Shown in pieces: positions 6,573-23,026 of a DNA stretch of 23,484 nucleotides. The translations under genes and the position numbers were made by a program. The first letter of the stretch is position 1. Every line of letters starts with the position of its first letter. The notes beneath the pieces are model-generated. The model ran no database searches. It saw only the letters and a program-made list of their open reading frames with translations, and had not been told where the DNA came from. This stretch comes from Streptosporangiaceae bacterium (GTDB taxonomy: Bacteria; Actinomycetota; Actinomycetes; Streptosporangiales; Streptosporangiaceae), in the NCBI GenBank assembly GCA_025934635.1, contig JAICWX010000120.1, positions 1 to 23,484 of the forward strand. Reading direction: 5' to 3'.

Positions 6573-7349
6573 TCAATATTCACATCCCCACCACGGGCCC
6601 CGTTCGTCACACACTCCAGCCCCGGGCAACGACATCGATGCTCCATCAATGTCGTTCCGGCAGCATTGATGCTCCATCCATGCCGTTAAGGATCGGCCCG
6701 ATGCCGTCTCGCCCATGGCGGTCAGCAACACGGGTAACAGGGGTTCGCCGGGCGCGGTAAACGGGACGCCTTCGGCGCAGAGCGGGCACCGGTTAGCGGG
6801 CCAGGTCTGGCTCGGGAGGTTGGCGGCCGGGTAGAAGGGCACGCCCAGCTGCTCCGGGATCAGCTCGCTGGCGTCGCCCAGCGCGAGCAGGGCGGTCACC
6901 GCGACGGGGACCGCGCCGTGCCTGCGTACCTCGGCCGCGCAGGCCGCCACGGCGGTGCCGGCGTTGACGGCGTCGTCGACGATGCCGACCCGCCAGCCGC
7001 CGATCCCGCCGGGCACCGGGCCAGCGTGGTAGCCCGCGATCCCGCCGGGCACCGGGCCGAGGTGGTAGCCCGCGAGCTCGCCGGGCGCGCGGTAGCCGGG
7101 CAGGAACGCCGCCGTCAGCCGGTCGGCGACGGCGTAGGCCAGGAACGCGCCGCCCTCCAGGGGGCCGCAGACCGCGTCGACCGCATGCTCCCGCAGCCGG
7201 TCCGCCATCCAGCGGACGGGCTGACGGAGCAGAACCGGGCGCAGGAACAGCGCGTCCAGCTCCAGCCACACATCCCCGTGGTACCCGGTGCCCAGGTCGA
7301 AGTGCCCCCGGGCGGGCCGAGCGAGCGGGACCGCGTCCCAGGAATCCAC
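6573..7349 (-). CDS. Orotate phosphoribosyltransferase-like protein with a repeat-derived C-terminal tail
   Basis: The protein has 258 residues from GTG 7349. It belongs to the type I phosphoribosyltransferase fold: a PyrE-like N-terminus (HFDLGTGYHGDVWLELD), VDAVCGPLEGGAFLA near 57-71, and the PRPP-binding loop VGIVDDAVNAGTAV at 121-134 with its two Asp residues. Actinobacterial relatives usually end soon after a cysteine-containing motif like CPLCAEGVPF (188-197). Here the frame continues about 60 more residues, through the palindromic repeats at 6625-6686, before a TGA at 6573. Residues 93-116 are a 12-residue tandem duplication just before the PRPP loop. The nucleobase substrate cannot be assigned, and no pyrimidine genes are nearby. 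The start lacks a strong ribosome binding site. Confidence 0.8.
   Translation of the reverse strand: MDSWDAVPLARPARGHFDLGTGYHGDVWLELDALFLRPVLLRQPVRWMADRLREHAVDAVCGPLEGGAFLAYAVADRLTAAFLPGYRAPGELAGYHLGPVPGGIAGYHAGPVPGGIGGWRVGIVDDAVNAGTAVAACAAEVRRHGAVPVAVTALLALGDASELIPEQLGVPFYPAANLPSQTWPANRCPLCAEGVPFTAPGEPLLPVLLTAMGETASGRSLTAWMEHQCCRNDIDGASMSLPGAGVCDERGPWWGCEY
6625..6686. repeat. 62-bp double-palindrome element, left copy
   Basis: It contains two imperfect palindromes. The first has 13-base arms (AACGACATCGATG and CATCAATGTCGTT) around CTC, with one mismatch. The second, at about 6659-6687, is built the same way around CTC. Its reverse complement matches 20752-20813 at 58 of 62 positions. It lies inside the 3' part of the phosphoribosyltransferase frame and could also fold as a terminator hairpin for the convergent genes. 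Confidence 0.85.
7001..7072 (-). repeat. 36-bp tandem duplication in the phosphoribosyltransferase gene
   Basis: Bases 7001-7036 and 7037-7072 are near-identical direct copies. On the minus strand they encode AGYHLGPVPGGI and AGYHAGPVPGGI. The duplication is in frame and lies just upstream of the PRPP loop. Confidence 0.75.
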
Positions 7350-7401
7350 CCCGCCATGGTCTCACCGGTGGACCGTCCGCCTCAGCCATCTGGCGGCCGG
7401 A

Positions 7402-7419
7402 ATCAGCTAGCTGGCTGAT
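7402..7419. promoter_or_regulatory. Candidate operator in the divergent gap, ATCAGC-N6-GCTGAT
   Basis: ATCAGC (7402-7407) and GCTGAT (7414-7419) are exact inverted arms. An overlapping perfect palindrome CAGCTAGCTG covers 7404-7413. It lies between the divergent starts at 7349 and 7481. A regulatory role is inferred from position only. Confidence 0.25.
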
Positions 7420-7480
7420 ACGCACTGGATGCGGCAACGGGCAGGCTGAGACAGAAGAAACGAGGGGCAGGAGGACGGGG

Positions 7481-7705
7481 ATGTTCAAGCGCAGGCAAGC
7501 CCGGGACGAGGCCTGGGAGGGTGTCGTCACCGATAAGAAACGGTCTTCGCCGGACGGCCAGAATATGTACCACCGGATCTCGGTGACGCTGGGCGACGGC
7601 ACGGTCAAGGAGGTCCGGGTGCGGGGCGGGCTGTGGAAAACGCTGGAGCCGGGTGACCGGATCGTCAAGCGGTCCGGCGAGACCGCCCCGGTCAAGATCG
7701 GCTAG
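7481..7705 (+). CDS. Conserved small actinobacterial protein of unknown function
   Basis: The protein has 74 residues and a strong ribosome binding site (AGGAGG at 7469-7474, 6 bases before ATG). The sequence is basic at the start (MFKRRQARDEAWEGVVTDKK), then strand-like (YHRISVTLGDGTVKEVRVRG) and ends with GLWKTLEPGDRIVKRSG. The composition suggests a small beta-barrel. It has no signal peptide and no membrane segment, so it is probably cytoplasmic. It resembles short hypothetical proteins common in Streptomyces and relatives (possibly the DUF7489 group, recalled rather than checked). It lies upstream of the dipeptidase gene on the same strand with a 60-base gap. Confidence 0.75.
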   Translation: MFKRRQARDEAWEGVVTDKKRSSPDGQNMYHRISVTLGDGTVKEVRVRGGLWKTLEPGDRIVKRSGETAPVKIG

Positions 7706-7765
7706 CCCGCGGCCGGCGGCCCGGCTGATGGCGGCATGATGGCCAGCAGCAGAAGGGAGCTGTCC

Positions 7766-8755
7766 ATGCCACGAATCGACCTGCACGGGCACGCGGGCCG
7801 GTGCTTCCTGGCCGGGCTGCCGGCCGGGCATCAGCTGATCGCGACGATGGGCGCGGCCGCCGTCGCGGACGCGGTGCGGGCCGCCCAGGCCGCGGGCATG
7901 ACCGCGGTGAACCTGTCCGCCGTGGCGGATTTCGCGGTGCTGCGGCCGGATCCGGCCAAGGGGCTGCGCGCGCACCGCGACTTCCGGCCCGGTGAGGCGT
8001 ACGCCGATTACCGCCGCCAGCTGACGGGGATCCGGCAGGCCGCGGCCGAAGCCGGCGCCGAGGTGGCCACGTCAGCGGCCGACCTGGAGCGGGCCGCCCG
8101 TGACGGCCGCACCGCGGTACTGCTCGGCTGCGAGGGCGGTGACTTCCTCGAGAGTGACCTGGGCCGGCTAGCGGAGGCCCGGGCGGACGGCGTCACCGTG
8201 CTCACCCTGGTGCACTACCGGGTCAACGAGCTCGGTGACGTGCAGACCGAGGCGCCGGTGCACGACGGGCTGAGCCGGTTCGGCCGCGACGTGGTGGCCG
8301 AGTGCAACCGGCTCGGCATCGTGGTCGACTGCGCGCACGCCAGCTTCGCCACCACCATGGCCGTGCTCGAGGAATCCAGCCAGCCGGTGATCATCTCGCA
8401 CGGCCAGCTCGGCCACGGCGACGCCGACGGCGGCGACAGTGGGCATCCCCGGCTGATGGCCACCGAGCATGCGACCGCGGTCGCGGACGCGGGCGGCCTG
8501 ATCGGCGCCTGGCCCTGCGGCTTCACCAGCATCTCGATGGACGACTTCGGCACCGAGATCATCCGCCTCACCGAGGCGGCCGGGGCCGGCCACGTCGCCC
8601 TCGGCACCGACCTGGACGGAAACTACAAACCCGTCCTGACCAGCTACGACCAGCTCACCGACCTCACCGGCCTGCTCAGCGAGCGCGGCCTGCCCGCCGC
8701 CCACATCGACCAGATCCTGGGCGGCAACGCCATGCAGCTGCTGACCGGCATCCTG
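7766..8755 (+). CDS. M19-type membrane dipeptidase-like amidohydrolase lacking its own stop codon
   Basis: About 330 recognisable residues. ATG 7766 is chosen because AGAAGGGAG (ending at 7759) lies 6 bases upstream; ATGs at 7736 and 7739 are in frame but lack this. Metal-site motifs of the renal dipeptidase family are visible: Glu123 in CEGGDFLES, His191 in VVDCAHAS, His212 in VIISHGQL and Asp282 in ALGTDLDG. The N-terminal HxD of classical dipeptidases is replaced by H7-G-H9, so the substrate may not be a dipeptide. The family-typical end (QILGGNAMQLL) is reached at about residue 326. The frame then has no stop and runs on antisense through ureC and ureAB to a TAG at 11009-11011. The recognisable end touches the ureC stop codon complement (8756-8758). 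This may be a deletion junction, or a real protein with a long tail. Confidence 0.75.
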
Positions 8756-10393
8756 TTACAGGAAGTACAGGCGGGACAGCGGCACGGTCTCGGCCGGAGG
8801 TATGGCGAGCAGGGAATCGTCGAGGGTGGTGCGGCCGGTGGCGGGGTCGACCCGGACTTCGCCCAGGAGGCCGTGCCGGATCATCGCATCCGGCCGCAGG
8901 GAACGGGTGGCGCGGACCGGGACACGGCGGCGGACTCCCGGCAGATCAGCGCCGGAGTCCAGGGCGGCCTGGGCGACGAACATGACCGAGAGCTCGGCCG
9001 GGGTGGCGCCGCAGCCGCCGAACTGCGGGCCGAGCACGATCGGCTCGGCGATGTCGATCGCCGCGTTCGGGTCGCCGGTCGCCCCCCAGGCCGGCACGCC
9101 CGCCTTCAGCACCAGCGTCGGCTTGGCCCCGAACCAGGCCGGGTCCCACAGCACGATGTCGGCCAGCTTGCCCACCTCGACCGAGCCCACCTCGTGCGCC
9201 AGCCCGTGCGCCACCGCGGGATTGATGGTCAGCTTGGCCAGGTACCGCAGCACCCGCTCGTTATCGTCCGGACCAGGAGAACCGAAAAAGCGCTTCATCA
9301 CCGCGGCCAGGCCGAACGTGCGGCGCACCGTCTCCCCGGCCCGGCCCATGCCCTGCGCGTCGGACGACGTGATCGGGATGACGCCGAGGTCGTGCAGCGG
9401 CCCCTCGGCCGCCATCGTGCCCGCCCGGATCCGGTCCCGGGCCAGCGCCGCGTCCCGCTCCGGGTCCAGGCCGTGCACCAGCGTGATCATGTCCAGGTGC
9501 TCGGCCACCGCGTCCCGGCCGAACGGCAGCGTGGGGTTGGTCGAGGAGGTGACCACGTCCGCCCGGCCGGCCAGTTCCAGCACGTTGGGGGCGTGCCCGC
9601 CGCCGCAGCCCTCGACGTGGAAGGCGTGGAAGACCCGGCCGCCGGCCACCGCCAGCGTGTCGGCCACGCAGCCGGCCTCGTTCAGCCCGTCGGTGTGCAG
9701 CGCCACCTGCACGTCGTAGGCGTCGGCCACGGTCAGCGCGGTATCCAGGCAGCGCGGGTGCGCGCCGAGGTCCTCGTGCACCTTGAAGCCGCACGCGCCG
9801 CCCGCCGCCAGCCCCTCCACCAGCGGCGCCGGGTCCGAGGAGGAGCCGCGGGCCAGGAACCCGATGTTGACCGGCCACTGGTCGAAGGCGGCGAACGCCT
9901 TGCGCAGCAGCCACGGCGAGTTCAGGCCCACCCCCCACACCGGCCCGATCTCCTGCCCGATCACCGTGGTGACGCCCGACGACAGCGACGCCTCCAGCAC
10001 CCGCGGGGACAGCAGGTGCACATGGGTATCCACCGCGCCCGGCGTGGCCAGCAGGCCCTCGCCGGGGATGATCGTGGTCCCGGTGCCCACCACCACGTCC
10101 ACGCCGTCCAGGGTGTCCGGGTTCCCGGCCCGGCCGATGGCGCTGATCCGCCCGGCCCGCACGCCGACCGAGACGGTCCGCACGCCCAGGACCGGGTCGA
10201 GCAGCGTCACGTTGGTGATCACGATGTCGCAGGTCTCGGTGGCGGTCGCCGCCCGCAGGTGCATGCCGTCCCTGGCCGTCTTCCCGAAGCCGGTCCGGAA
10301 CTCGTCACCCGCCCGCTGCGCGTCCGCCTCCACCCGGATCACCAGCCCGGTATCGGCCAGCTCGATCAGGTCCCCCGCCGTCGGCCCGGTCAC
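8756..10393 (-). CDS. ureC: Divergent urease alpha subunit (UreC-like)
   Basis: The protein has 545 residues against about 567 in classical bacterial UreC. GTG 10393 overlaps the ureAB stop by four bases (GTGA). By alignment to Klebsiella UreC from memory, all nickel ligands are present: His124 and His126 (DTHVH), the carbamylated Lys204 (GFKVHEDLG), His233 (ALHTD), His259 (FHVEG) and Asp345 ([10 protein letters not shown]), plus the catalytic flap histidine His307. Two differences stand out. The flap cysteine equivalent (Cys319) is Val306. The loop after GVTT reads [12 protein letters not shown] instead of the usual GGGTGPAAGTHA and is about 3 residues shorter. It should form the catalytic core of a nickel amidohydrolase acting on urea or a urea-like substrate. 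No ureD, ureE, ureF or ureG is in the window. It ends in SRLYFL, close to the usual RYFLF. Confidence 0.9.
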
Positions 10394-11049
10394 GATACGT
10401 CCAGGTACCCGCAGGCCCGGGCCTTCTCCAGCGCCCGCTCCTTAGCGCCCGGCTCGTCCAGCGGCCCGTCCACCAGGCCGGCGAACCCGATGACCACCCG
10501 CCGCCCGCCGATCGGCACCAGCGGTACCCGCCGGGTACCGCCCGGCTCGAACCGCACCGCCGCGCCCGCGGTCACCGCCAGGTGCAGGCCGTACGCCGCC
10601 GCCCGGTCGAAGCGCAGCCGCGGGTTGGCCTCGAAGAAGTGGAAGTGGCTGGTTACCGAGATCGGCACCACCGCCGTGTTGGTCACCTCGAGCACGACCT
10701 CCCCGGCCAGCTCGGCCGACTCCAAAGCCCCGGCACCAGCAGCACCCGCCCGGAACGGATCACGCACCACCGCCAGCCGGGTGCCGTCGTCGAAGACCGC
10801 CTCCACCCGCACCTCGGGCACCGCCCGGACCACGCCCGGCAGGACCTCGGAAACATCGAGCACCGAACGGGCGGCCTCCACCGCCTCGGCCAGCCGCCTG
10901 CCGTCGCGGGCGGCCTCGCACACGGCGTCTGCCACCAGGGCGGTGGCCTCGACGACGTTCAGGCGCAGACCGCGACCGCGCCGGGCCCGCGCGAGCTCGG
11001 CGGTGAGGTAGATGAGGAGGCGATCTCGTTCGGCCTCATTGAGCTTCAA
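10390..11049 (-). CDS. ureAB: Fused urease gamma-beta subunit (UreAB)
   Basis: The protein has 219 residues. Residues 1 to about 75 match the UreA gamma subunit ([20 protein letters not shown], then [18 protein letters not shown] and EAARDGR). Residues from about 105 match the UreB beta subunit ([40 protein letters not shown]-like AYGLHLAV, then [13 protein letters not shown]). The gamma-beta fusion is known in some bacteria, including Helicobacter and actinomycete urease-like loci. The TTG at 11049 is the only start giving the conserved MKL N-terminus, and AGGAAGG lies about 10 bases upstream. It sits 16 bases after the amidohydrolase stop and overlaps ureC, so all three form one transcript. 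Confidence 0.9.
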
Positions 11050-11065
11050 CGGCGGCCTGCCTTCC

Positions 11066-12742
11066 TCATTCCCCGGTGCCGGCTACGACCTTGCCCCCCG
11101 CGACCGTCAGGACGACCGAGGTACTCCCGATACCGCTGGCGGGCATGGAGTACAGGTCCTGGTCGAGCACGGCCACGTCGGCCCGCATCCCCGGCAGCAG
11201 CTGCCCGGTGACCTCCTCGGCGTGGTTCACCCAGGCCACGCCGGTGGTGAACGCGTCCACCGCGTCCTCGAGCAGGACCGCCTGGCCGAGCTGGAACGGC
11301 TTGTCGCATTCGGGCGTGCCCGGCTGGCCCTGCCGCTCGGACAGCACCCGGTTCGCCGCCACGTGCATCTCCTGCAGCGGGTCGGGGGTGGACACCGGCC
11401 AGTCGCTGCCGAACGCGATCCGGGCGCCGCGCCGGGCCAGCGCGCCGATCTGGTACTGCCACAGGGCGCGCTCCGGGCCGACGAACGGCAGCGTCAGCTC
11501 CTCCATCTGCGGCTCCGAACACGCCCAGAGCGGCTGGAAGTTCGCCACCGCGTCCAGTTCCCGGAACCTGTTCATGTCGCGCGGCACGATGAACTGCAGG
11601 TGGGCCAGGTGATGCCGGCCGTCCCGGCGCTGCTGCTCCGGCAGGGCCGCGAGCGCGTCCAGCGCGGTGGTGACGGCCAGGTCGCCGAGCGCGTGGAAGT
11701 GCAGCTGGAAGCCCTCGGCGGCCAGCCGCCCGGTGGCATCGCGCAGCTCGTCGGGCTCGATGAACAGCTTGCCGCTGTGGCCGGTGGAATGACCGTCGCG
11801 GTCGAGGTAGGGCGCCGACATGGCGGCCGTGCCGGTCTCGCACACCCCGTCCAGCATCAGCTTCACCGAGGTGGCCAGGAACCGGCCGTCGCGGGCCTGC
11901 TCGCGGCGGGTCAGCAGGTCCGCCAGCTGGGTCACGCCGCGGGCCCGGTCCCACCACAGCGCGCCGGTCACGTGGGCGGTGAGCGAGCCGTCGGCGGCGG
12001 CCTGCCGGTAGGTCTCGAAGGCGTCCGGGATGCCGAGCTCGTCGGCCGCCCCGACGCAGGCGTCCTGCCAGCTGGTGATGCCGAGCGAGTGCAGGTAGGC
12101 CTGGGCCGCCAGCAGGCCCGCGGTCAGCTCGGCCGGGCTGGCGGCCGGGATGAGCCGGCCGACCAGGCGCATCGCCCCGTCGTGCAGCGCGCCGGCCGGG
12201 TTCCCGGCCGCGTCCCGCTCGATCCGGCCGTCGGCCGGGTCGGGGGTGCTTGCGTCGACGCCGCCCCTTCGCAGCGCTTCGGTATTAACCCAGGCGCTGT
12301 GGTGGTCGCGGTTCGGGATGAAGGCGGGCCGGCCGCCGGTGACCGAGTCCAGGTCGGCCGCCGTCGGCGTGCCGCCGGGGAAGGACTCCATCGCCCAGCC
12401 GCCGCCGAGCGCCCAGCCGTCGGCGGGCAGCTTCGCGCAGTAGGCGGCCACCGCGGCCAGGCACTCGGCCCGGGTCCGCAGCCCCAGCAGGTTGCAGCGC
12501 AGGCTCTCCAGGCCGCCGCTGACCGCGTGCACGTGCGCGTCGCCGAAGGCCGGCAGGGCCAGCCGCCCGCGCAGGTCGATCACCCGGGTCCGGGGGCCCT
12601 GGAGCTCGCGGATCTCGTCGTCGGTGCCCAGCGCCACGATCACGCCGTCCCGGGCGGCCAGCGCCGGGACGAACCGGGAAGGGTGGGCTGGACTGCGGAT
12701 CTTCCCGTTGGCCAGGATCAGGTCTGCCTCGGGTTGCGTCAC
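11066..12742 (-). CDS. YtcJ/NfdA-like amidohydrolase (amidohydrolase_3 family)
   Basis: The protein has 558 residues from GTG 12742 (AGGCGG about 7 bases upstream). This metal-dependent amidohydrolase TIM barrel carries HxH at 70-72 (GDAHVH), Lys294 in SVKLMLDGV, His348 and His350 in LHFHALGD, His381 in HLAHLQF and Asp447 in [12 protein letters not shown]. The N-terminal part ([10 protein letters not shown]) and the last 60 residues ([14 protein letters not shown]) form the composite beta-sandwich usual for the class. Members hydrolyse N-substituted formamides and other amides, and most are uncharacterised. It is the first gene of the operon with ureAB and ureC, which suggests it releases or precedes a urea-like product. 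It is divergent from the flavoenzyme at 12838. Confidence 0.88.
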
Positions 12743-12770
12743 GCGTGCACCGCCTGAATCTGTGAGGTTG

Positions 12771-12790
12771 TGTTTGTGTGCACGCTAACA
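12771..12790. promoter_or_regulatory. 20-bp palindromic operator candidate in the divergent promoter region
   Basis: TGTTTGTGTGCACGCTAACA pairs at 8 of 10 positions around the central GTGCAC, with consensus TGTTnGnGTGCACnCnAACA. It lies 28 bases from the amidohydrolase start and 47 bases from the preferred flavoenzyme start, so one bound regulator could control both directions. The candidate GTG start at 12778 falls inside it. No obvious regulator gene for this pair is adjacent; the LacI protein at 15356 appears to have different boxes. Confidence 0.5.
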
Positions 12791-12837
12791 GGTGGGCCCG
12801 ATTGACCGCCCAGAACGGGCGACCTTACGCTGCGTGG

Positions 12838-15285
12838 ATGAACGCTGCGCGGCCGGCCCGAGCCCGGGCCGTAGTCATCGGCGGCGGCGTAGTCGGCTGC
12901 AGCACCGCCTACCACCTGGCCAAGCGCGGCTGGACCGACGTGGTGCTGCTGGAGCGCAAACGGCTGACCTCCGGCACCACCTGGCACGCGGCCGGCCTGA
13001 TCACCCAGGCCCGGCCCACCCACGGCACCCGGGAAATCGTCCGGCGCAGCCTGCGGGTATTCAAGTCGCTGCCGGCGGAGACCGGGTTCGCCACCGGGTT
13101 CACCGAGACCGGGACCCTGCACCTGGCCGACAGCGCCGAGCGCCTGGAGGAGCTGAGCCGGCAGGCCTCGGCCGCCAGGGCCAGCGCCATCACCGCCGAG
13201 ATCATTTCCCCCGAACGGGCGGCCGAGCTGTTCCCCGGCCTGTACACCGGGGACCTGGCCGGGGCGGTGTACTACCCCGGCGACGGGCGCGGCAACGCCA
13301 CCGACACCACCATGGCCCTGGCCGGGGGCGCCCGCCAGCTCGGCGTGCGGATCTTCGAGAACACCGCGGTGACCGGGATCATCCGGCGCGACGGGCGGGT
13401 CGCGGGCGTCTCCACCGCGGACGGCGACATCGAGGCCGAGTACGTGGTGGCCGCGGCCGGCCTGTGGGGGCGCGAGGTCGGCGCGCTGGCCGGAGTGCGG
13501 GTCCCGCTCCAGGCACTGGCCCACTATTACGTGATCACCGAGGCGATTCCCGGCCTGGCGCCGGGCCTGCCGACGGTCAAGACCGCGCCGGACTACGCGT
13601 ACGTGCGGAACGAGGGCGCCGGGCTCATGGTCGGCTTCTTCGAGCCGGGCAGTTACCCGTGGGCCGCGCGCGGCATCCCCGCCGACGCGGAGTTCACCCG
13701 GCTGCCCGAGGACTGGGACCACCTGGGGCCGTTCTACGAGCAGATGATGAAGCGGCTGCCGGTGCTGGCCGAGACCGGCATCCGGCTGCACTTCTGCGGC
13801 CCGGAGAGCTTCACCCCGGACGGCCTGTACCACCTCGGCGAGGCACCGGGCCTGCGCAACTTCTTCGTCGCGGCCGGCTTCAACTCGGTCGGCTTCCTGT
13901 CCGGGCCCGGGGCCGGCTCGGTGCTGGCCGACTGGATCGTGGACGGGCGCTCGCCGCTCGACCTGCCCGAGACCGACCCCCGCCGGACCGCCCCGCACGA
14001 GACGAACCGGCGCTTCCTCGAGCAGCGCGTCACCGAGACGCTCGACCTGGCGTACGAGCTGCACTGGCCCTACCAGCAGCGGGAAAGCGCCCGCGGGCTG
14101 CGCCGCAGCCCGCTGCACGACCGGGTGGCGGCGGCCGGGGCGGTCTTCGGCGAGCTGCTCGGCTGGGAGCGGGCCAACTGGTACGCCCCTTCCGGGGTGC
14201 CGAAGCGATATGAGTACTCGTTCGGGCGGCAGAACTGGTTCGAGCACTCGGCCGCGGAGCACCAGGCCGTCCGGTCGGGGGTGGGGCTGTTCGATACCTC
14301 CTCGTTCGGCAAGCTGCTGGTGCAGGGGCGGGACGCGCTGGCGGTGCTGCAGCGGGTCAGCGCCGGGAACGTGGCGGTCGAGCCGGGCCGGATCGTCTAT
14401 ACCCAGTGGCTCAACGCCTTCGGCGGCATCGAGAGCGACGTCACCGTGACCCGGCTGGACCAGACCCGGTTCCTGGTCCTGTCCGGCCCGGCCACGCTGG
14501 CCCGGGACCGCGACTGGCTGGAGCGGAGCATCGGACCGGACGAGTTCGCCGTCGTCACCGACATCAGCGCGGCGCTGGCCATGATCGGTGTGATGGGACC
14601 GTCTTCGCGTTCCCTGCTGCAGTCTTTGACCGACGAGGGTCTGTCCGGCGCGGCCTTCCCGTTCGGGACTTCCCGGGAGATCGACCTCGGCTGCGGTTTC
14701 GTCCGGGCCACCCGGATCACCTACGTGGGCGAGCTCGGCTGGGAACTGCTCATCCCGGCCGACCTGGCTTCTCATGTTTACGAGACGCTGGTCTCGGCCG
14801 GTGACGGGTACGGGCTGCGGCACGCGGGCTATCACGCCCTGGACTCGCTGCGGATGGAGAAGGCCTACCGTTCGTGGGGCCACGACATCTCCGGCGGGGA
14901 CACGCCGCTGGAGGCGGGGCTGAGCTTCGCCGTGGCCTGGGACAAGCCTGATTTTACCGGGCGGGATGCCCTCCTCCGGCTCCGTGAACAGGGTGTATCG
15001 CGGCGGCTGGTGCAGTTCGCGCTGTCCGATCCGGACGCGTTCGCCTACCACGACGAGCCCGTCTACCGGGACGGCGTCCTGGCCGGGCGGGTCAGCTCGG
15101 CCGCCTACGGCCACACCCTTGGCCGCACGGTGGCGCTGGGCTACGTGACCGCGCCGGAACCGGGGACGCCGGCCTCCTGGTACACGGCGGGGAGCTACGA
15201 GATCGAGATCGCCGGCCAGCGGGTCGGGGCCGACGCCTCGCTGCGTCCCCTCTACGACCCGGCCTCGCAGCGTCCCCGCGGCTGA
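12838..15285 (+). CDS. FAD-dependent dimethylglycine/sarcosine dehydrogenase-like protein with GcvT folate domain
   Basis: The protein has 815 residues from ATG 12838. The upstream in-frame GTG 12778 would add 20 residues but lies inside the operator palindrome. Residues 11-380 form a DAO-type FAD domain with AVVIGGGVVGCSTAYHLAKR and ADP-binding VVLLER. His50 in SGTTWHAAG is the likely covalent FAD attachment site of this family. A linker (FAO_M-like, about 385-440) precedes a GcvT aminomethyltransferase-like folate-binding region (from about 440: YEYSFGRQNWFEHSAAEHQA, later YVGELGWELLIP). Relatives oxidise N-methyl groups of dimethylglycine or sarcosine and pass formaldehyde to tetrahydrofolate as methylene-THF. 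The exact N-methyl substrate cannot be read from sequence. It is divergent from the amidohydrolase/urease operon, and a joint pathway is inferred. Confidence 0.88.
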   Translation: MNAARPARARAVVIGGGVVGCSTAYHLAKRGWTDVVLLERKRLTSGTTWHAAGLITQARPTHGTREIVRRSLRVFKSLPAETGFATGFTETGTLHLADSAERLEELSRQASAARASAITAEIISPERAAELFPGLYTGDLAGAVYYPGDGRGNATDTTMALAGGARQLGVRIFENTAVTGIIRRDGRVAGVSTADGDIEAEYVVAAAGLWGREVGALAGVRVPLQALAHYYVITEAIPGLAPGLPTVKTAPDYAYVRNEGAGLMVGFFEPGSYPWAARGIPADAEFTRLPEDWDHLGPFYEQMMKRLPVLAETGIRLHFCGPESFTPDGLYHLGEAPGLRNFFVAAGFNSVGFLSGPGAGSVLADWIVDGRSPLDLPETDPRRTAPHETNRRFLEQRVTETLDLAYELHWPYQQRESARGLRRSPLHDRVAAAGAVFGELLGWERANWYAPSGVPKRYEYSFGRQNWFEHSAAEHQAVRSGVGLFDTSSFGKLLVQGRDALAVLQRVSAGNVAVEPGRIVYTQWLNAFGGIESDVTVTRLDQTRFLVLSGPATLARDRDWLERSIGPDEFAVVTDISAALAMIGVMGPSSRSLLQSLTDEGLSGAAFPFGTSREIDLGCGFVRATRITYVGELGWELLIPADLASHVYETLVSAGDGYGLRHAGYHALDSLRMEKAYRSWGHDISGGDTPLEAGLSFAVAWDKPDFTGRDALLRLREQGVSRRLVQFALSDPDAFAYHDEPVYRDGVLAGRVSSAAYGHTLGRTVALGYVTAPEPGTPASWYTAGSYEIEIAGQRVGADASLRPLYDPASQRPRG

Positions 15286-15297
15286 GTGGCTGCCTTG

Positions 15298-15337
15298 GTC
15301 TGCGATTCTGGTCGTCCTAGCAGCCAGAACCGCAGAC
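15298..15337. terminator. Bidirectional hairpin terminator between convergent genes
   Basis: Arms GTCTGCGATTCTGG (15298-15311) and CCAGAACCGCAGAC (15324-15337) pair with one mismatch around a 12-base loop. TT precedes and AAA follows the stem, giving short T tracts on either strand. It lies 12 bases after the flavoenzyme stop and 18 bases before the end of the convergent LacI gene, which is the right place to separate the two transcripts. Confidence 0.75.
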
Positions 15338-15355
15338 AAAGCGGCATTCTGGGAG

Positions 15356-16363
15356 TCACCGGGGCCGCGGCGGGCCGGTGCTTTCCCGTACCACCAGCAT
15401 GGTGGACAGCTCGATGTGCCGCGGCTCGCCGGCCGCGGTGGCCGGGTCGGAGCGGAGCATGCGGAAGGCCGTGGCCGCCATGGCCGCCAGCGGCTGCCGG
15501 ACCGTGGTCAGGGCCGGCGTGGCCCAGGCGGCCACCGGGACGTCGTCGAAGCCGACCACGCTCAGGTCGTCCGGCGCCCGCAGCCCGCGTTCGCCCAGCG
15601 CCTGGAGCACGCCGAACGCCTGGCTGTCGTTCCCGGCCAGCACGGCCGTGGGCGGCTCGGGCAGGGCGAGAAGCTCCCGGGCCCGCGCCCGCCCGGCCGT
15701 TACCATGAAGTCGCCCCGGCGGACGAGGGCCTCGTCCGGGCTGAGCCCGGCCGCCTGCCGGGCGGCGCGGTAGCCGTCCAGCCGGGCCTGGCTGGACCAC
15801 AGGCCGGGCGGACCGCCGATGATCGCGATACGGCGGTGGCCGAGTTCGATCAGGTGCCTGGTCGCGGTCATGCCGCCCAGCCAGTTGGTCGTGCCGACCG
15901 AACGGATGGCGTCACCGGGCTCGGTGGCCGGGTCGATCATCACCAGCGGGATCCGGGCGGCGGCCAGCCGGCGCAGCTCCCGGCTGCCCGGCAGGCGCAG
16001 TACGCACAGCGCGCCGTCGGTGCCCCGGGTCGTCGCCCGGTCCAGCCAGTCGTCGAATTCCCGCGGCGAGTGCACGGTCGTCGCGATCACGCTGGTGCCG
16101 GCCTCGTTGGCCGCCTCCAGGGTGCCGCGCAGCAGCTCCTCGGCCCAGGGACTGTGCAGGTCCGCGATCAGCAGGTCGACGACCCCGAAGCCGAGCCGGG
16201 AGGCGACCTGGTACCCGTGCTGCCTGAGCAGGATGGCGATCCGGGCCCGGGTGCCGGCCGCGACGTCCGTCCGCCCGTTGAGCACCTTGGAAACCGTCGA
16301 CACCGACACCCCGGCGCCGGCCGCGATATCGACCAGGGTGCTCCGGCGGGCGTCGCGCGCCAC
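15356..16363 (-). CDS. LacI-family transcriptional repressor
   Basis: The protein has 335 residues from GTG 16363 (AGGAG about 5 bases upstream). The LacI HTH and hinge helix span residues about 8-60 (TLVDIAAGAGVSVSTVSKVL, then a KNG/HxR-like segment). A periplasmic-binding-protein-like sensor domain covers about 60-330 (VVDLLIADLHSPWAEELLRG, VGTTNWLGGMTATRHLIELG, SVVGFDDVPVAAWATPALTT). Such repressors release DNA when bound by a sugar or derivative. It is divergent to the four-gene sugar operon starting at 16515, and both leaders carry the same TTTTCGA(A/G)AA box, so it probably represses that operon and itself. Confidence 0.92.
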   Translation of the reverse strand: MARDARRSTLVDIAAGAGVSVSTVSKVLNGRTDVAAGTRARIAILLRQHGYQVASRLGFGVVDLLIADLHSPWAEELLRGTLEAANEAGTSVIATTVHSPREFDDWLDRATTRGTDGALCVLRLPGSRELRRLAAARIPLVMIDPATEPGDAIRSVGTTNWLGGMTATRHLIELGHRRIAIIGGPPGLWSSQARLDGYRAARQAAGLSPDEALVRRGDFMVTAGRARARELLALPEPPTAVLAGNDSQAFGVLQALGERGLRAPDDLSVVGFDDVPVAAWATPALTTVRQPLAAMAATAFRMLRSDPATAAGEPRHIELSTMLVVRESTGPPRPR

Positions 16364-16368
16364 GATGG

Positions 16369-16384
16369 CTCCTTTTCGAAAAAT
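16369..16384. promoter_or_regulatory. Putative LacI operator in front of the repressor gene
   Basis: TTTTCGAAAA (16373-16382) is a perfect 10-base palindrome with the central CG usual for LacI-family sites. It lies directly upstream of, and partly overlaps, the ribosome binding site of the repressor on the minus strand. The 16-base segment matches 16495-16510 at 14 of 16 bases when read on the minus strand. Confidence 0.55.
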
Positions 16385-16447
16385 ATGCTTGAAATATCTT
16401 GGGTAGTCGCGTCCTCGTAGTATCGCCCACGATCGGAAAAATCTCTA

Positions 16448-16476
16448 TTGACCTGCTGGGAAGCGGAATCTAGCGT
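16448..16476 (+). promoter_or_regulatory. Sigma70-type promoter for the sugar operon
   Basis: TTGACC at 16448-16453 and TAGCGT at 16471-16476 are separated by 17 bases, fitting an actinobacterial housekeeping promoter (TTGACn, TAnnnT). Transcription would begin at about 16483, leaving a leader of about 30 bases before GTG 16515. The putative operator at 16495-16510 would sit just downstream of the start point. Confidence 0.6.
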
Positions 16477-16494
16477 GGTCCGGGGGAAGCGACG

Positions 16495-16510
16495 ATTTTT
16501 CGAGAAGGTG
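16495..16510. promoter_or_regulatory. Putative LacI operator in the sugar-operon leader
   Basis: ATTTTTCGAGAAGGTG includes TTTTCGAGAA (16497-16506), one base off the perfect palindrome in front of the repressor. It overlaps the GAAGG ribosome binding site (16504-16508) of the first operon gene. A repressor bound here would block early transcription. Confidence 0.5.
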
Positions 16511-16514
16511 AACT

Positions 16515-17258
16515 GTGACTGCCAAGCCTCCGGCCCTGCAGCTCTACACCGTCCGGGATCAGCTGGCCACCGACCGGGCCGGGATACTGAAGCGCGTCGC
16601 CGATTACGGCTACGCGGCGGTAGAGCCGTTCGGTATTACCAACGACCCGCAGGGGCTACGGGCCGACCTGGATGCGGCGGGCCTGTCCGTGTGCAGCGTG
16701 CACGCGATCCCCGTCGGGGACGAAGCCGAGGCCGTCATCAGCGCCGCCCGCACCCTCGGCGCGGACACCGTCATCGTCCCGTACCTGCCGCCGCCCCGGT
16801 TCGCCGATGCCGACGGCGTGCGCGGGATCGCCGCCGAGCTGAACGAGGCATCGGCCCGGCTAGCGGGCGAGGGCATGCGGCTGGGCTACCACAATCACGA
16901 TTTCGAGCTCTCCTCCCTGATCGACGGCACGCCCGCGCTGGAGGTGCTGGCCGGCCAGCTCGACGACGCGGTGCTGCTCGAGCTCGACACCTACTGGGCC
17001 GCGGTGGGCGGCCAGGACGTGCCCCCCCTGCTCGGCCGGCTGGGCGACCGGGTCGGTTACCTGCACGTCAAGGACGGCCCGGTCGTCAACCGGGAGGACT
17101 TCATGACCGCGGTCGGCTCCGGCCGGATGCCAGTCGCCGAGATCCTGGCCGCCAGCCCGTCGACCTGGCACGTGGTCGAGCTCGACCGCTGCGCCACCGA
17201 CATGATGACCGCGGTCGGGGACAGCCTGGCCTGGCTGACCGGACAGGGGCTGGCCTGA
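16515..17258 (+). CDS. Sugar phosphate isomerase/epimerase-like TIM barrel protein (short form)
   Basis: The protein has 247 residues; GTG 16515 has GAAGG 6 bases upstream. It is an AP-endonuclease-2/xylose-isomerase-like barrel. Likely metal and substrate residues are in LGYHNHDFE (His126, His128, Glu131), LELDTYW (Glu156, Asp158), LHVKDG (His184, Lys186, Asp187) and VVELD (Glu222, Asp224). These proteins isomerise or epimerise free or keto sugars, or cleave oxidised sugar derivatives. It is the first gene of the operon, and its TGA shares the base A with the ATG of the next gene (TGATG), so the two are coupled. There is no signal peptide, so it is cytoplasmic. The substrate is unknown. Confidence 0.85.
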   Translation: MTAKPPALQLYTVRDQLATDRAGILKRVADYGYAAVEPFGITNDPQGLRADLDAAGLSVCSVHAIPVGDEAEAVISAARTLGADTVIVPYLPPPRFADADGVRGIAAELNEASARLAGEGMRLGYHNHDFELSSLIDGTPALEVLAGQLDDAVLLELDTYWAAVGGQDVPPLLGRLGDRVGYLHVKDGPVVNREDFMTAVGSGRMPVAEILAASPSTWHVVELDRCATDMMTAVGDSLAWLTGQGLA

Positions 17259-18364
17259 TGAGGGGCGCGGGCCCGGTCGGTGTCGCCGTCGTCGGCTGCG
17301 GCACCATCAGCCGCGAGTACCTGCGCAACCTGACCGCGTTTCCCGACCTGCGCGTGCTGTTCTGCGCCGATATCGACCTCGAGCGGGCCGCCAAGCAGGC
17401 CGCCGCGTACGACGTGCCGGAGTCGGGAACGCCGGAGGAGGCGCTGCGGCACCCCGACGTGGAGATCGTGGTCAACCTGACCATCCCGGCCGCCCACGCC
17501 GAGGTCACCTCGGCCGCGCTGGCGGCCGGCCGGAGCGTCTGGACCGAGAAGCCGCTCACCCTCGACACCACCTCCGGGCGGCGCCTGCTGGCCGAAGCGG
17601 ACCAGGCCGGGCTGCTCCTCGGCTGCGCCCCCGACACGATGCTCGGCGCCGGGCTGCAGACCGCCCGGCGGCTGATGGCCGAGGGGGTGATCGGCGTGCC
17701 GCAGACGGCGCTGACGATGATGCAGTCACCCGGCCCCGAGCTCTGGCATCCCGATCCCGAGTTCCTGTTCCAGCCCGGCGCGGGCCCCGTGTTCGACATC
17801 GGGCCCTACTACCTGTCCTGGCTGGCCACGATCTTCGGCCCGGCCGAGCGGGTCGCGGCGGTAAGCCGCCGCAGCCGCGACACCAGGGTCATCGCCAAGG
17901 GGCCGCGGGCCGGCACGGAGTTCCGGGTGGAGGTGCCCACCCACTACTCCGGCCTGATCGAGTACGCGGCCGGCCCCGCCGCCACGTTCGTGTTCAGCTT
18001 CGAGTCGCCGCTCCCGCGGCACGGGTTCATGGAGGTCACCGGCACCGAGGCCACCATGGTGCTGCCCGACCCGAACCGGTTCGACGGCGAGATCAAGCTC
18101 CGCGCCATCGGATCCGACGACTGGGAGACCCGGCCGGTCAGCGGGGCGTCCGACGGGCGCGGGCTCGGCGTGCTCGACATGGCCCGGGTGCTGCGTACCG
18201 GGGGCCTGCTGCGCGCGCCGGGCGAACTGGGCCTGCACGTGCTGGAGACCATGGAGGCGATCGACCGGTCCGCCGCGGACCATTCGTTCCTGCCGGTGCG
18301 GTCGGGCTTCAGCCTGCCCGAGCCGCTGGACTCCGCCTGGGATCCCAAGGCCAGCACCCTGTAA
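17258..18364 (+). CDS. Gfo/Idh/MocA family oxidoreductase (first)
   Basis: The protein has 368 residues. The frame is open upstream to 16448, but ATG 17258 overlaps the previous stop by one base and gives the family N-terminus. The NAD(P)-binding motif is VAVVGCGTISREYL (9-22). The EKP motif with the catalytic lysine is at 97-99 (WTEKPL), and FDIGPYYLSWL (180-190) lies in the second domain. The family oxidises sugar hydroxyls, inositols or glycosides, often at C3. Pairing with an isomerase-like barrel on each side suggests an oxidised sugar intermediate. The stop TAA lies inside a duplicated 13-base sequence (see repeat at 18354). Confidence 0.9.
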   Translation: MRGAGPVGVAVVGCGTISREYLRNLTAFPDLRVLFCADIDLERAAKQAAAYDVPESGTPEEALRHPDVEIVVNLTIPAAHAEVTSAALAAGRSVWTEKPLTLDTTSGRRLLAEADQAGLLLGCAPDTMLGAGLQTARRLMAEGVIGVPQTALTMMQSPGPELWHPDPEFLFQPGAGPVFDIGPYYLSWLATIFGPAERVAAVSRRSRDTRVIAKGPRAGTEFRVEVPTHYSGLIEYAAGPAATFVFSFESPLPRHGFMEVTGTEATMVLPDPNRFDGEIKLRAIGSDDWETRPVSGASDGRGLGVLDMARVLRTGGLLRAPGELGLHVLETMEAIDRSAADHSFLPVRSGFSLPEPLDSAWDPKASTL

Positions 18365-18382
18365 GCACGGCACCCTGTAAGC
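18354..18382 (+). repeat. Near-tandem duplication spanning the stop codon of the first dehydrogenase gene
   Basis: GCACCCTGTAAGC occurs at 18354-18366 and again at 18370-18382 (period 16). The first copy holds the real TAA stop (18362-18364), and the second places the same codon context just downstream. Confidence 0.7.
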
Positions 18383-18416
18383 CCACCACCTTAGGATCAG
18401 CTTGACGGGAGGTCCG

Positions 18417-19604
18417 GTGACAGAGGAAACCGCGGGCCCGCCGGTACTCGGCGTCGGCCTGGTCGGCTACGCGTTCATGGGCGCGGCCCACTCCCAGGCC
18501 TGGCGGACCGTGCCGCACGTGTTCGACCTGCCGCTGCGGCCCGCCATGGCCGCACTGTGCGGCCGGGATCCGGTCGCCGTGCGCGCCGCGGCGGACCGGC
18601 TCGGCTGGGCCGCCACCGAGACGGACTGGCAGGCCCTGATCAAGCGGGACGACGTGCAGCTGGTGGACGTGTGCACGCCGGGCGAGTTCCACGCCGAGGT
18701 CGCCATCGCGGCGCTCGAGGCGGGCAAGCACGTGCTGTGCGAGAAGCCGCTCGCCAACACCCTGGCCGAGGCCGAGGCGATGGCGGCCGCGGCGGAGCGG
18801 GCCGCTGCCCGCGGGGTCCGCTCGATGACCGGGTTCAACTACCGCCGTGTCCCGGCCCTGGCCCTGGCCCGCCAGCTGGTCACCGAGGGCAGGATCGGCC
18901 AGCTCCGCCACGTCCGGGCGAGCTACCTCCAGGACTGGCTGATCGACCCGTCGTTCCCGCTGACCTGGCGGCTTCAGCGCGAGCGGGCCGGATCCGGCGC
19001 GCTGGGCGACCTGGGCGCCCACATCGTCGACCTGGCCCAGTACCTGACCGGGGAGCCGATCGCGGGCGTCTCCGCGGCCACCGCCACCTTCGTCGCCGAG
19101 CGGCCGCTGCCGGAAGCGGCGGACGGCTCCGCGCATTCCGGCCCGCGCTCCGGGCCGGTCACCGTGGACGACGCCGCGGTGTTCACCGGCCGGATGCGCT
19201 CGGGTGCCCTGGCCACGTTCGAGGCGACCAGGTTCGCGGCGGGCCGCAAGAACCAGCTGCGGATCGAGCTGAACGGGGACGGTGGCAGCCTGGCCTTCGA
19301 CCTCGAGCGGCTGAACGAGCTGGAGTTCTTCGACCGGGCCGGCGACAGCGCCGAGGCGGGCTTCCGCCGGATCCTGGTCACCGAGCCCGCCCACCCCTAC
19401 CTGTCCGCCTGGTGGCCGCCGGGCCACATCATCGGCTGGGAGCACACGTTCACGCACCAGGCCCGGGACCTGGTGACCGCGATCGCCACCGGCGGGGAGC
19501 TGGCCCCGACGTTCACCGACGGCCTCCAGGTGCAGCGCGTCCTGGACGCGGTCGAGCGCAGCGCCGCCAGCGAGGCCGCGTGGACACCCGTACCGACGAA
19601 CTGA
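18417..19604 (+). CDS. Gfo/Idh/MocA family oxidoreductase (second)
   Basis: The protein has 395 residues. GTG 18417 is preferred because GGGAGG (18407-18412) lies 4 bases upstream; the in-frame TTG 18402 would put that site inside the gene. The Rossmann start is [19 protein letters not shown] (11-29). EKP is at 109-111 (LCEKPLAN), and [11 protein letters not shown] (197-207) supplies the Asp/His/Asp residues typical of the active site. It is about 30 residues longer than the first dehydrogenase of this operon and not closely similar, so the two likely oxidise different substrates. It is separated from the next gene by 34 bases. Confidence 0.9.
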
Positions 19605-19638
19605 TGCTGATGCCAGCCGACCCGAGGGAGCCCTGACG

Positions 19639-20646
19639 ATGCCCCGTCCCTTCACCTTGTTCACCGGTCAGTGGGCTGACCTGCCCCTGGAGGAGATCTG
19701 CCAGCACGTCAAGGAGTGGGGCTACGACGGCCTCGAGCTGGCCTGCTGGGGTGACCACTTCGACGTGCAGCGGGCGCTGACCGAGGACGGCTACCTGGCC
19801 GGCCGGCACGAGCTGCTGGCCAAGTACGACCTGAAGTGCTGGGCGATCTCCAACCACCTGACCGGGCAGGCGGTCTGCGACCACCCCATCGACGCCCGCC
19901 ACCAGGCCATCCTGCCCGCCCGGATCTGGGGCGACGGCGAGCCGGAAGGCGTGCGGCAGCGCGCCGCGGCCGAGCTGGCCGACACCGCGCGGGCGGCCGC
20001 GGCGTTCGGGGTGGACACCGTGATCGGCTTCACCGGCTCGTCGATCTGGCACACGGTGGCGATGTTCCCGCCCGTGCCCGAGTCCATGATCGACGCGGGC
20101 TACCAGGATTTCGCCGACCGCTGGAACCCGATCCTCGACGTGTTCGACGCCGAGGGCGTCCGCTTCGCCCACGAGGTCCATCCCAGCGAGATCGCCTACG
20201 ACTTCTGGACCACCCACCGCGCGCTCGGGGCCGTGGACCACCGGCCCGCGTTCGGCCTGAACTTCGACCCGAGCCACTTCGTCTGGCAGGATCTCGACCC
20301 GATCGCGTTCCTGGACGAGTACCGGGACCGGATCTACCACGTGGACTGCAAGGAAGCCCGCAAGCGGCTCGACGGCCGCAGCGGCCGCCTCGGTTCCCAC
20401 CTGCCCTGGGGCGACCCGCACCGCGGCTGGGACTTCGTCTCGGCCGGCCGCGGCGACATCCGCTGGGAGGACATCTTCCGCATGCTGAACTCGATCGGCT
20501 ATTCCGGCCCGATCTCGATCGAGTGGGAGGACGCCGGGATGGACCGCCTGACCGGCGCGGCCGAGGCGATCACCTTCCTGCGCCGGTTCGACTTCGACCC
20601 GCCCCAGGCCGCCTTCGACGCCGCCTTCAGCTCCGGCCGCGACTAG
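19639..20646 (+). CDS. Sugar phosphate isomerase/epimerase-like TIM barrel protein (long form)
   Basis: The protein has 335 residues; GAGGGAG (19624-19630) lies 8 bases before ATG 19639. It is a xylose-isomerase-like barrel with probable metal ligands in FAHEVHPSE (Glu179, His181), NFDPSHFVW (Asp210, His213), IYHVDCKEA (His234, Asp236) and [10 protein letters not shown] (Glu295). This larger subgroup is usually found beside Gfo/Idh/MocA dehydrogenases, as here. It is the last gene of the operon. The stop TAG is inside an exact 17-base tandem duplication. The reaction is unknown; isomerisation or epimerisation of a keto-sugar, or eliminative cleavage of an oxidised glycoside, are the main options. 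Confidence 0.87.
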
Positions 20647-20663
20647 GCTCCGGCCGCGACTAG
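20630..20663 (+). repeat. Exact 17-bp tandem duplication spanning the stop codon of the long isomerase gene
   Basis: GCTCCGGCCGCGACTAG occurs at 20630-20646 and again at 20647-20663 with no gap. The first copy contains the real TAG stop and the second repeats it in the untranslated region. Confidence 0.85.
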
Positions 20664-20726
20664 CCAGCCCAGGCAGCGCTGACCGCGACATCGACAACAG
20701 TGCCACGTCGTCGTCGGCCCGGCTGA

Positions 20727-20813
20727 CCGGCATGGATGGAGCACTCAGCTGACGGCATGGATGGAGCATCGATGCTGCCGGCACGGCATTGATGGAGCAT
20801 CAATGTCGTTGCC
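20727..20813. repeat. Palindromic repeat array, right copy of the 62-bp element plus one degenerate unit
   Basis: Bases 20752-20813 match the reverse complement of 6625-6686 at 58 of 62 positions. They contain two palindromes centred on GAG; the second includes CATTGATG-GAG-CATCAATG with perfect 8-base arms. A third, half-degenerate unit (CCGGCATGGATGGAGCAC) lies at about 20728-20745. The array sits in the 326-base space between the sugar operon and the YbjQ-like gene. Apart from the array, no gene or clear promoter was seen from 20664 to 20972. Confidence 0.85.
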
Positions 20814-22264: not shown

Positions 22265-23026
22265 TCATGAGCCCAGGGTCCCGGCCAGGAAGGCGCGGGC
22301 GGCGGCGAAGGAGCGCTCGTCGGCGAGCCGGTCGTAGGCGACACCGGGCATGGCTCCGGGAGCTCCCGGAACCGCGTGCTGGTGAGTGAAGCCGTGCATG
22401 GCCCGGCCGTACATGACCAGTTCCCAGTCGGCGTCGGCCTGGTTCATCTCCTCGGCGAAGGCGGTGACGTCGCCCGGCGGGACGTGCGGGTCGGACGCGC
22501 CGTGGCAGACCAGGATCCTGGCCATCACGGCGCCGGGCACCGCGGGCCGGCTGGTGGCGAGGCTGCCGTGGATGCTCACCACGCCGGCCAGGTCCGCGCC
22601 CGCGCGGGCCAGGGCCAGCGCGGCCATGCCGCCGAAACAGAAGCCGACCGCCGCCAGCGGTCCGGCTGCCTCCGGGCAGCCCGCCAGCGCCGTCAGGCCC
22701 GCCCGGGTCCGGCGGACGAGCAGATCCGGGTCGTCGCGCAAGGCCAAGAGGCACGCCATGACCCGCTCACGGTTCCCCGTCACCCCCGGGCCGAACATGT
22801 CGCAGGCGAGCACCGTATAGCCGATCCCCGCGTACCGGCGGGCCTGTTCCCGGGCGTGCACGTCAAGCCCGGCGCCGCCGTGGATGAGCAGTATCCCCGG
22901 TCGCGGGCCGCCGTGGGCATCGTCCCAGCAGAGCAGCCCGGTCAGCGGGAGGTCGAGGTCCTGATAGGAGAGGCCGCGGGCGGCGATAGCGTCGCCGGAA
23001 GTTAGTGGAGAACTGTCGCTGATCAC
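22265..23026 (-). CDS. Dienelactone hydrolase family alpha/beta hydrolase
   Basis: The protein has 253 residues. The family triad is visible: nucleophile Cys130 in GFCFGG, Asp179 in GASDPHVP and His211 in MHGFTH. The oxyanion-hole strand ILLIHGGAGLD begins near residue 45. Members hydrolyse dienelactone in aromatic catabolism or other esters, and isolated genes like this one usually have unknown substrates. GTG 23026 is the only good start and lacks a ribosome binding site. A TAATCT box ends 7 bases before it, so a leaderless transcript is possible, although no good -35 is seen. No aromatic-degradation genes are nearby. Confidence 0.88.
   Translation of the reverse strand: MISDSSPLTSGDAIAARGLSYQDLDLPLTGLLCWDDAHGGPRPGILLIHGGAGLDVHAREQARRYAGIGYTVLACDMFGPGVTGNRERVMACLLALRDDPDLLVRRTRAGLTALAGCPEAAGPLAAVGFCFGGMAALALARAGADLAGVVSIHGSLATSRPAVPGAVMARILVCHGASDPHVPPGDVTAFAEEMNQADADWELVMYGRAMHGFTHQHAVPGAPGAMPGVAYDRLADERSFAAARAFLAGTLGS

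Follow-up and report, generated by a model that had tools for sequence, protein, structure and literature searches.

Repetitive extragenic palindromic sequences (REPs) that carry a GTAG tag are usually attributed to REP-associated tyrosine transposases (RAYTs). Here we describe a twin-palindrome element present as an inverted pair in a 23,484-nucleotide stretch of Streptosporangiaceae DNA (contig JAICWX010000120.1, the whole of which we call the window), and compare it with such repeats. The portion of the REP literature on which we draw (PMC3733652) describes REPs as high in copy number, palindromic, extragenic, dimeric and biased toward gene 3' ends. Tagged REPs are placed there in the proteobacteria and several other phyla, the actinobacteria being named only through an untagged family of M. 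tuberculosis; untagged REP-like families are listed from M. tuberculosis, D. radiodurans, Bordetellae, Brucellae and cyanobacteria, with their relatedness posed as a question (PMC3733652, same portion). We consider it probable that the two window copies are members of a dispersed, intergenic, REP-like family present in part of the order that includes G001, a metagenome-assembled genome labelled Nocardiopsis sp., and that they can form hairpins at transcript ends. We take this order to be Streptosporangiales.

The repeating unit is a frame of 56-62 bp, CCGG-N17-CCGG-N6-CCGG-N17-CCGG or a variant of it, with two palindromic halves and a fixed period of 31 bp. In the window it is represented by the following features:

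6626..6687, minus strand (the GATGGAGCATC sense strand): left twin-palindrome element, 62 nt, two units 31 bp apart; 64.7 bits in a covariance model partly built from this copy
6668..6678, minus strand: core GATGGAGCATC, unit 1 of the left copy, exact match
6637..6647, minus strand: core GATGGAGCATC, unit 2 of the left copy, exact match
20751..20812, plus strand (the sense strand): right twin-palindrome element, 62 nt; 63.7 bits in the model, again partly built from this copy
20760..20770, plus strand: core GATGGAGCATC, unit 1 of the right copy, exact match
20791..20801, plus strand: core GATGGAGCATC, unit 2 of the right copy, exact match
20731..20749, plus strand: degenerate third unit, placed 25 bp ahead of the right copy's first full unit; sequence match, weak in the covariance model

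The original prediction, made from this DNA alone, described an inverted 62-bp match with two palindromes per copy and a degenerate extra unit near 20728-20745, and all of this was confirmed. Positions 6625-6686, reverse-complemented, are identical to 20752-20813 at 58 of 62 positions and, written on the GATGGAGCATC strand, both copies consist of two palindromic units whose centres lie 31 bp apart. The window contains four exact cores, two in the left copy (6637 and 6668, reading GATGCTCCATC) and two in the right (20760 and 20791). The extra unit is the decayed CATGGATGGAGCACTCAGC (4 mismatches), which the covariance model scored weakly (20732-20748, 5.4 bits, E=3); with filters off the model detected no third full copy in the window, the next-best match reaching 12.5 bits (E=0.035). 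The sense strand of each copy is also that of the adjacent upstream gene, a phosphoribosyltransferase-like open reading frame (ORF) on the left and an isomerase on the right. Folded as RNA on this strand the right and left copies reach -36.7 and -32.3 kcal/mol (z -4.6 and -4.9), more stable than all 200 dinucleotide shuffles, and the antisense folds reach -27.6 and -25.1 kcal/mol (z -2.5 and -3.4; equalled by 2 and 1 of 200 shuffles). Two G001 copies were folded for comparison: one gave z -6.3, the other a single long hairpin with z -2.4 (5/200 shuffles as stable). No Rfam family matched the elements, either in the window or at ten G001 loci, even with scores below the gathering threshold admitted. 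We found no account of this twin-palindrome element in the titles and abstract openings of open-licence papers, those containing the 11-letter core string being unrelated by title.

Dispersal is most evident in G001. Searching 84,980 genomes for a pair of exact cores separated by 14-26 bp returned 10 stretches, five of them in G001; the other five (Methanolliviera, Acetatifactor, Lachnospiraceae, Epulonipiscium and Sphingomonas) are different repeats by eye. The 15-mer TCGATGGAGCATCGA has 145 sites in G001 at up to 2 mismatches, versus 4 for a reversed control, and tandem pairs at up to 3 mismatches number 65 on 64 contigs, with none for the control. The exact core occurs 44 times in G001; none of the order's 344 other genomes has more than 12. 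Across the order the pair search matched 11 of 345 genomes, the ten besides G001 having one 3-mismatch hit each, and the reversed control hit two genomes. The window's outer arms (CAT./.ATG) had no match in G001 at up to 2 mismatches (control 1); G001 therefore shares the core and period but has different arms. One of the identities first proposed, a genome-wide extragenic palindromic repeat, is thus supported as far as relatives are concerned, through these pairs and the same-frame families of other genomes described below, and for the window's own genome we infer it.

The 65 G001 copies and the two window copies align without gaps, and information in the G001 alignment drops sharply outside -8 to +50 (about 59 bp). 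The spacing was not forced by the search, as among 30 G001 sites selected on one exact unit, 29 proved to have a second unit precisely 31 bp to one side and one stood alone (30 of 36 exact sites had loci, two pairs supply both units, and no other spacing occurred more than twice). The linker between the units takes the form of 38 distinct hexamers among the 65 copies, and the loops read GAG or GAA. Double changes that keep the symmetry were found in 10 pairs versus 5.2 in shuffles, with none of 500 shuffles reaching 10. At the innermost variable pair of both units G-T outnumbers A-C by 45 to 7, a strand bias compatible with RNA, although the copies are related and these counts are therefore not independent events; the sense fold is the stabler one in 46/65 copies. 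For some G001 copies the alignment extends into the flank, reaching 237 bp at 78 % identity, and these long common flanks favor copying of DNA.

Placement relative to genes was judged from calls made with a simple codon-based finder of our own, so that gene starts are uncertain. None of the 65 G001 copies overlaps a predicted gene. Their 114 neighbouring gene ends comprise 65 3' ends, 16 of which lie within 50 bp, and 49 5' ends, of which none does; where both neighbours were called (49 copies), 15 copies sit between convergent, 7 between divergent and 27 between co-directional genes. Among 35 copies in four further genomes (G339, G046, G047 and G036) the corresponding figures within 50 bp are 14/29 3' ends versus 2/25 5' ends. 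Taken in its general sense, a REP is short, palindromic, high in copy number and dispersed, all of which the G001 repeat is, and extragenic, which holds for all 65 G001 copies and for 32 of the 35 in the four further genomes, but not for the left window copy.

To follow the family more widely we ran the covariance model, built from the 65 G001 and two window copies, against 200 genomes from the family to which G051, closely related by its isomerase, belongs, scoring the best 26 candidates per genome; near-palindromes match on both strands and the model's E-values are rough. A match at E<=0.1 was obtained in 38 of the 200, but since E-values are per genome some 20 chance matches are expected at this threshold, and lone weak matches are therefore at chance level. 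Besides G001, the best 26 candidates per genome included about 11 separate places in G339, 16 in G046 (one of which, L194, does not resemble an element), 16 in G036, 8 in G047, 4 in G032 and 2 in G030. The other 31 matching genomes had one match (28) or two (three), mostly weak, the strongest being in G335 (1.6e-7) and G334 (1.2e-6). Spread beyond the order was considered and rejected: when 374 genomes of the class were searched (best 14 candidates per genome), six had a match at E<=0.001: G001 strongly and five with one match each, from 1.5e-4 to 8.7e-4.

On the common frame the inner sequence differs genome by genome, reading CCGGATGAATGTGACATTCAGCCGG in G339, CCGGATGGATGTGGCATCCACCCGG then TTATAA in G046 and CCGGCTCGATGGAAATCTGAGCCGG then TTATAA in G047. 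TTATAA is the linker in 7/9 copies read in G046 and in 3/8 in G047, and several TTATAA-centred copies in these two genomes form a single overall palindrome. Pairing of the long arms (standard pairs, with loops counted) is higher than local pairing (loops not counted) in G339 (0.87 v 0.78), G046 (0.88 v 0.85) and G047 (0.79 v 0.72), and the reverse is true of G001 (local 0.88 v 0.77), the window (0.95 v 0.82) and single copies of G335, G334 and G332. By eye, some G047 copies join a GATGGAGCATC half to a GGAAATC half, and the families are therefore linked. The exact frame CCGG-N17-CCGG-N6-CCGG-N17-CCGG matches in 220/345 genomes of the order, with counts (control in brackets) of 39 (1) in G001, 13 (0) in G046, 7 (1) in G047 and at most 6 in all others, G084 and G333 having 5 versus 0. 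Element-like places made up 4/6 of those listed for G046 and two or three of 6 for G047, the remainder being chance-like, so that the frame count can be relied on in just two genomes, G001 and G046. G339 has a frame count of 0, and its second half mostly starts GCGG. The centre CCGGTTATAACCGG, sought at up to 1 mismatch in 16 chosen genomes, occurred 56 times in G046 (control 1), 20 in G047 (0), 5 in G001 (0), 2 in G030 (1) and once in G032 (0); it was absent from the other eleven, including G339 and G036, which have different linkers, and G051, G057, G338, G050, G208 and G333. As the model likewise gave no match in G051, G050 and G208, the family is patchy among close relatives. In G036 we also observed, in 7/8 copies (L205-L212, missing from L206), a shared upstream module of about 50 bp, CCCATGGGTCAC..TCACGTCAC...

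The left window copy is not cleanly extragenic, lying within the 3' part of a reading frame:

6573..7349, minus strand: orotate-phosphoribosyltransferase-like ORF, frame continuing through the left element

Homologues of this ORF number 734 proteins at E<=1e-10, the window's own included; one source names them orotate phosphoribosyltransferase, and Pfam gave no match for the ORF. In an alignment of 20 homologues, 16 end shortly after an IPL(S/T)P stretch and 4 have longer tails, whereas the window ORF runs on through the element. In two of the four long-tailed proteins, both metagenomic, the C terminus (NGMDGASMPPERH in P0002, NGMDGASMLPERH in P0034) is the translation expected of GGCATGGATGGAGCATCNATG...CCGGAACG. 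Among the matches listed (120 of 734), DGAS occurs in the last 60 residues of only the window protein, P0002 and P0034. Judged from these protein tails, the element seems to occupy the equivalent gene end in kin, which would favor inheritance over recent arrival. The tail of P0035, ..GSMLHRPGG.., could reflect an element that lies the other way round at this gene end, which is a conjecture drawn from the protein sequence. Further into the ORF, window positions 6980-7090 encode a short GYHxGPVPGGIAG-like repeat whose copy number differs among homologues.

A plausible scenario is that copies spread by duplication, via machinery not yet found, and settle in the gaps at gene 3' ends, where they would be least harmful. 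Copies once settled would be retained by descent and, where transcribed, may form strong hairpins, serving as transcript ends or being tolerated as such. Several observations weigh against this reading. We found neither a mobilising enzyme nor a clean empty site with a target duplication. Dispersal was counted in relatives rather than in the window's own genome, and the window, with two copies per 23 kb, is denser than G001 with roughly one pair per 100 kb, which could reflect a larger copy number in its genome or chance. Extragenic placement is not absolute (predicted-gene overlap in 3/35 copies of G339, G046, G047 and G036, the other 32 being extragenic). With regard to RNA, the covariation depends in part on the two window rows, and sliding the structure by 3 columns gives a covariation score of 0.094 versus 0.083, although only 35 % of cells then pair. 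A structure of two hairpins accounts for the alignment no better than a single long one (87.8 vs 87.7 % of cells), and 55/65 G001 copies lack a three-base loop in their best fold, so that the RNA could take either form. The sense orientation to the upstream neighbour (34/55 G001 copies, p=0.10) is not significant, weakening an RNA-only role, and the rigid 31 bp, close to three turns of the helix, is what one would expect of a protein on DNA.

More tentatively, and with less than even confidence, we raise the possibility that the element is a clade-wide 'palindrome-of-palindromes' with a rigid 31-bp half-period, its inner sequence replaced as a whole from one species to another on an unchanged frame, kept by an unrecognised, co-evolving trans-acting factor, either a non-Y1 mobilising enzyme or a phased DNA-binding protein. 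One candidate for a mobiliser, a gene common to the neighbourhoods of the copies, was set aside: among 287 predicted genes at 108 loci (1-2 kb flank) no cluster spans all carriers, the largest having 9 genes (six from G001, two from G046, one from G339) and 6 (four from G001 and one each from G046 and G335). A phage or plasmid origin was likewise rejected, with no match in either collection. Six viral contigs (L011-L016) carry CATNGATGGAGCATCNATG, but by eye the surrounding sequence resembles a single protein-coding stretch that recurs among them, and it seems to have no relation to the repeat.

An alternative that we regard as rather unlikely is a binding array, in which a homodimeric DNA-binding protein (a chromosome organiser or global regulator) would sit on both palindromes, on one helix face and three turns apart. 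The period is indeed rigid in spite of the varied linker (38 hexamers among 65 copies), dyad symmetry is preserved through the double changes, and genome-specific sequences could follow a changing protein. However, the copies lie near gene 3' ends and avoid 5' ends, unlike operators, and G001 copies that align over as much as 237 bp, flank included, point to DNA copying and not to independently evolved sites. The regulator binding array of the original prediction is therefore a poor fit at promoters, as none of the 49 gene 5' ends in G001 lies within 50 bp of a copy, although a protein bound elsewhere could be accommodated.

We think it very unlikely that these are classical REPs, or their paired form (REPINs), mobilised by a RAYT, a Y1 tyrosine transposase. 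In favor of that explanation, the family is high in copy number, palindromic, extragenic, dimeric and 3'-biased, as REPs are in the portion of PMC3733652 cited above. Against it, (i) Y1_Tnp (PF01797, RAYT-type) had no match in 7/8 element-bearing genomes, which may be incomplete; (ii) the three Y1_Tnp genes of G001 are on contigs other than those with the 65 pairs and have no clear flanking element; and (iii) the 14-16 nt end windows of the 65 G001 copies contain no conserved GTAG or CGTC tag (5'/3' end counts: GTAG 1/1, CTAC 1/1, CGTC 9/5, GACG 0/5). About 1 kb from one of the G001 Y1_Tnp genes there is only a weak model match (L136 1484-1540, 16.2 bits, E=0.0012). Nor was the suggestion borne out that the window copies are the ends of a mobile element, there being no recognised mobiliser gene beside the copies and no target duplication demonstrated, although the long flanks that some copies share do favor copying of DNA.

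The two copies had also been taken to bracket a 14-kb metabolic block, possibly an invertible one. Immediately before the right copy lies the last gene of this stretch:

19639..20646, plus strand: sugar-phosphate-isomerase-like gene (PF01261, by Pfam), about 100 bp upstream of the right element

To the right of that element are a YbjQ-like protein and an ORF at 22265-23026 that we take to be dienelactone-hydrolase-like; as these are not signalling genes, the right copy marks no change in gene type. Fetched contigs were inspected for the nine closest relatives examined, whose isomerase is 82-86 % identical. Five (G051, G046, G208, G057 and G030) have LacI, a first isomerase, two oxidoreductases and the second isomerase in order. 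Four of these genes remain in G338 and G333, on short contigs, and in G334, where LacI was not found within the 20 kb read; G050 has two, at a contig end. The left genes of the window block were not beside the LacI-isomerase genes on the fetched stretches of any of the nine, and the model placed no element beside the second isomerase in them (its best match, of 16.9 bits and E=0.017, is in G208 at a distance of over 6 kb). What is kept together is thus the right third alone, from LacI to the second isomerase, and the window stretch between the copies is not a conserved unit in relatives, which leaves a block boundary or invertible block unsupported. A de novo scan for tandem palindromes in 19 stretches of relatives gave just two low-complexity hits, both in L141, and a near pair in G029 is by eye a duplicated start region. 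It is most improbable that the copies are recombination sites or composite-element ends through which the 14-kb block could be inverted or moved: a nearly identical inverted pair separated by about 14 kb would by itself permit recombination, but dozens of dispersed pairs exist in G001, the left copy is within a reading frame, the nine relatives lack both the left genes beside LacI-isomerase and a flanking element on the fetched stretches, and the ten window proteins scanned with Pfam (other window ORFs being outside the scan) include no recombinase. Relatives show the very outcome that the original prediction named as making the bracketing chance, many dispersed copies with no link to block boundaries (65 pairs in G001). 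Given a dispersed repeat family, the pairing around the 14-kb stretch would be incidental, and two paired short repeats should not be taken as the boundaries of a gene block.

Two further points concern genes between the copies. Operators of the LacI protein (15356-16363) were considered as an identity for the elements and ruled out, the copies being at gene 3' ends and more than 4 kb distant. Positions 8756-11049 encode a protein with a urease-alpha N-terminal domain (PF00449) and an amidohydrolase domain (PF01979) which, with an adjoining 219-aa ORF that is presumably urease beta/gamma-like, possibly forms a divergent urease-related pair.

We return to the reading that we favor, a dispersed REP-like family, and to how it compares with known systems. 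As far as tested, the family is REP-like yet not a REP-RAYT system; an actinobacterial family of this kind, with fixed 31-bp geometry and with no RAYT seen in most carriers, would raise the question of what copies and maintains such repeats. Like the miniature inverted-repeat transposable elements (MITEs), the repeats are non-autonomous and some copies have flank in common; as to differences from MITEs, we identified neither terminal inverted repeats outside the palindrome itself nor a target duplication. With REPs, bacterial interspersed mosaic elements (BIMEs) and REPINs that have a RAYT, as presented in the cited portion of PMC3733652, they share being short, palindromic, extragenic, high in copy number, frequently paired, frequently downstream of genes and lineage-specific; they differ in having no conserved GTAG tag and, in seven of eight carriers (genomes possibly incomplete), no Y1 transposase that we could find. 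The CGTC-tagged REPs of the same source resemble them as palindromic repeats without a dedicated transposase and are described there mainly as head-to-head dimers, whereas CGTC lies near the 5' end in only 9/65 and near the 3' end in 5/65 G001 copies. By description alone, the likeness extends to the untagged REP-like families (PMC3733652, as above), which are also palindromic, dispersed and tagless, and one of which belongs to another actinobacterium, M. tuberculosis.

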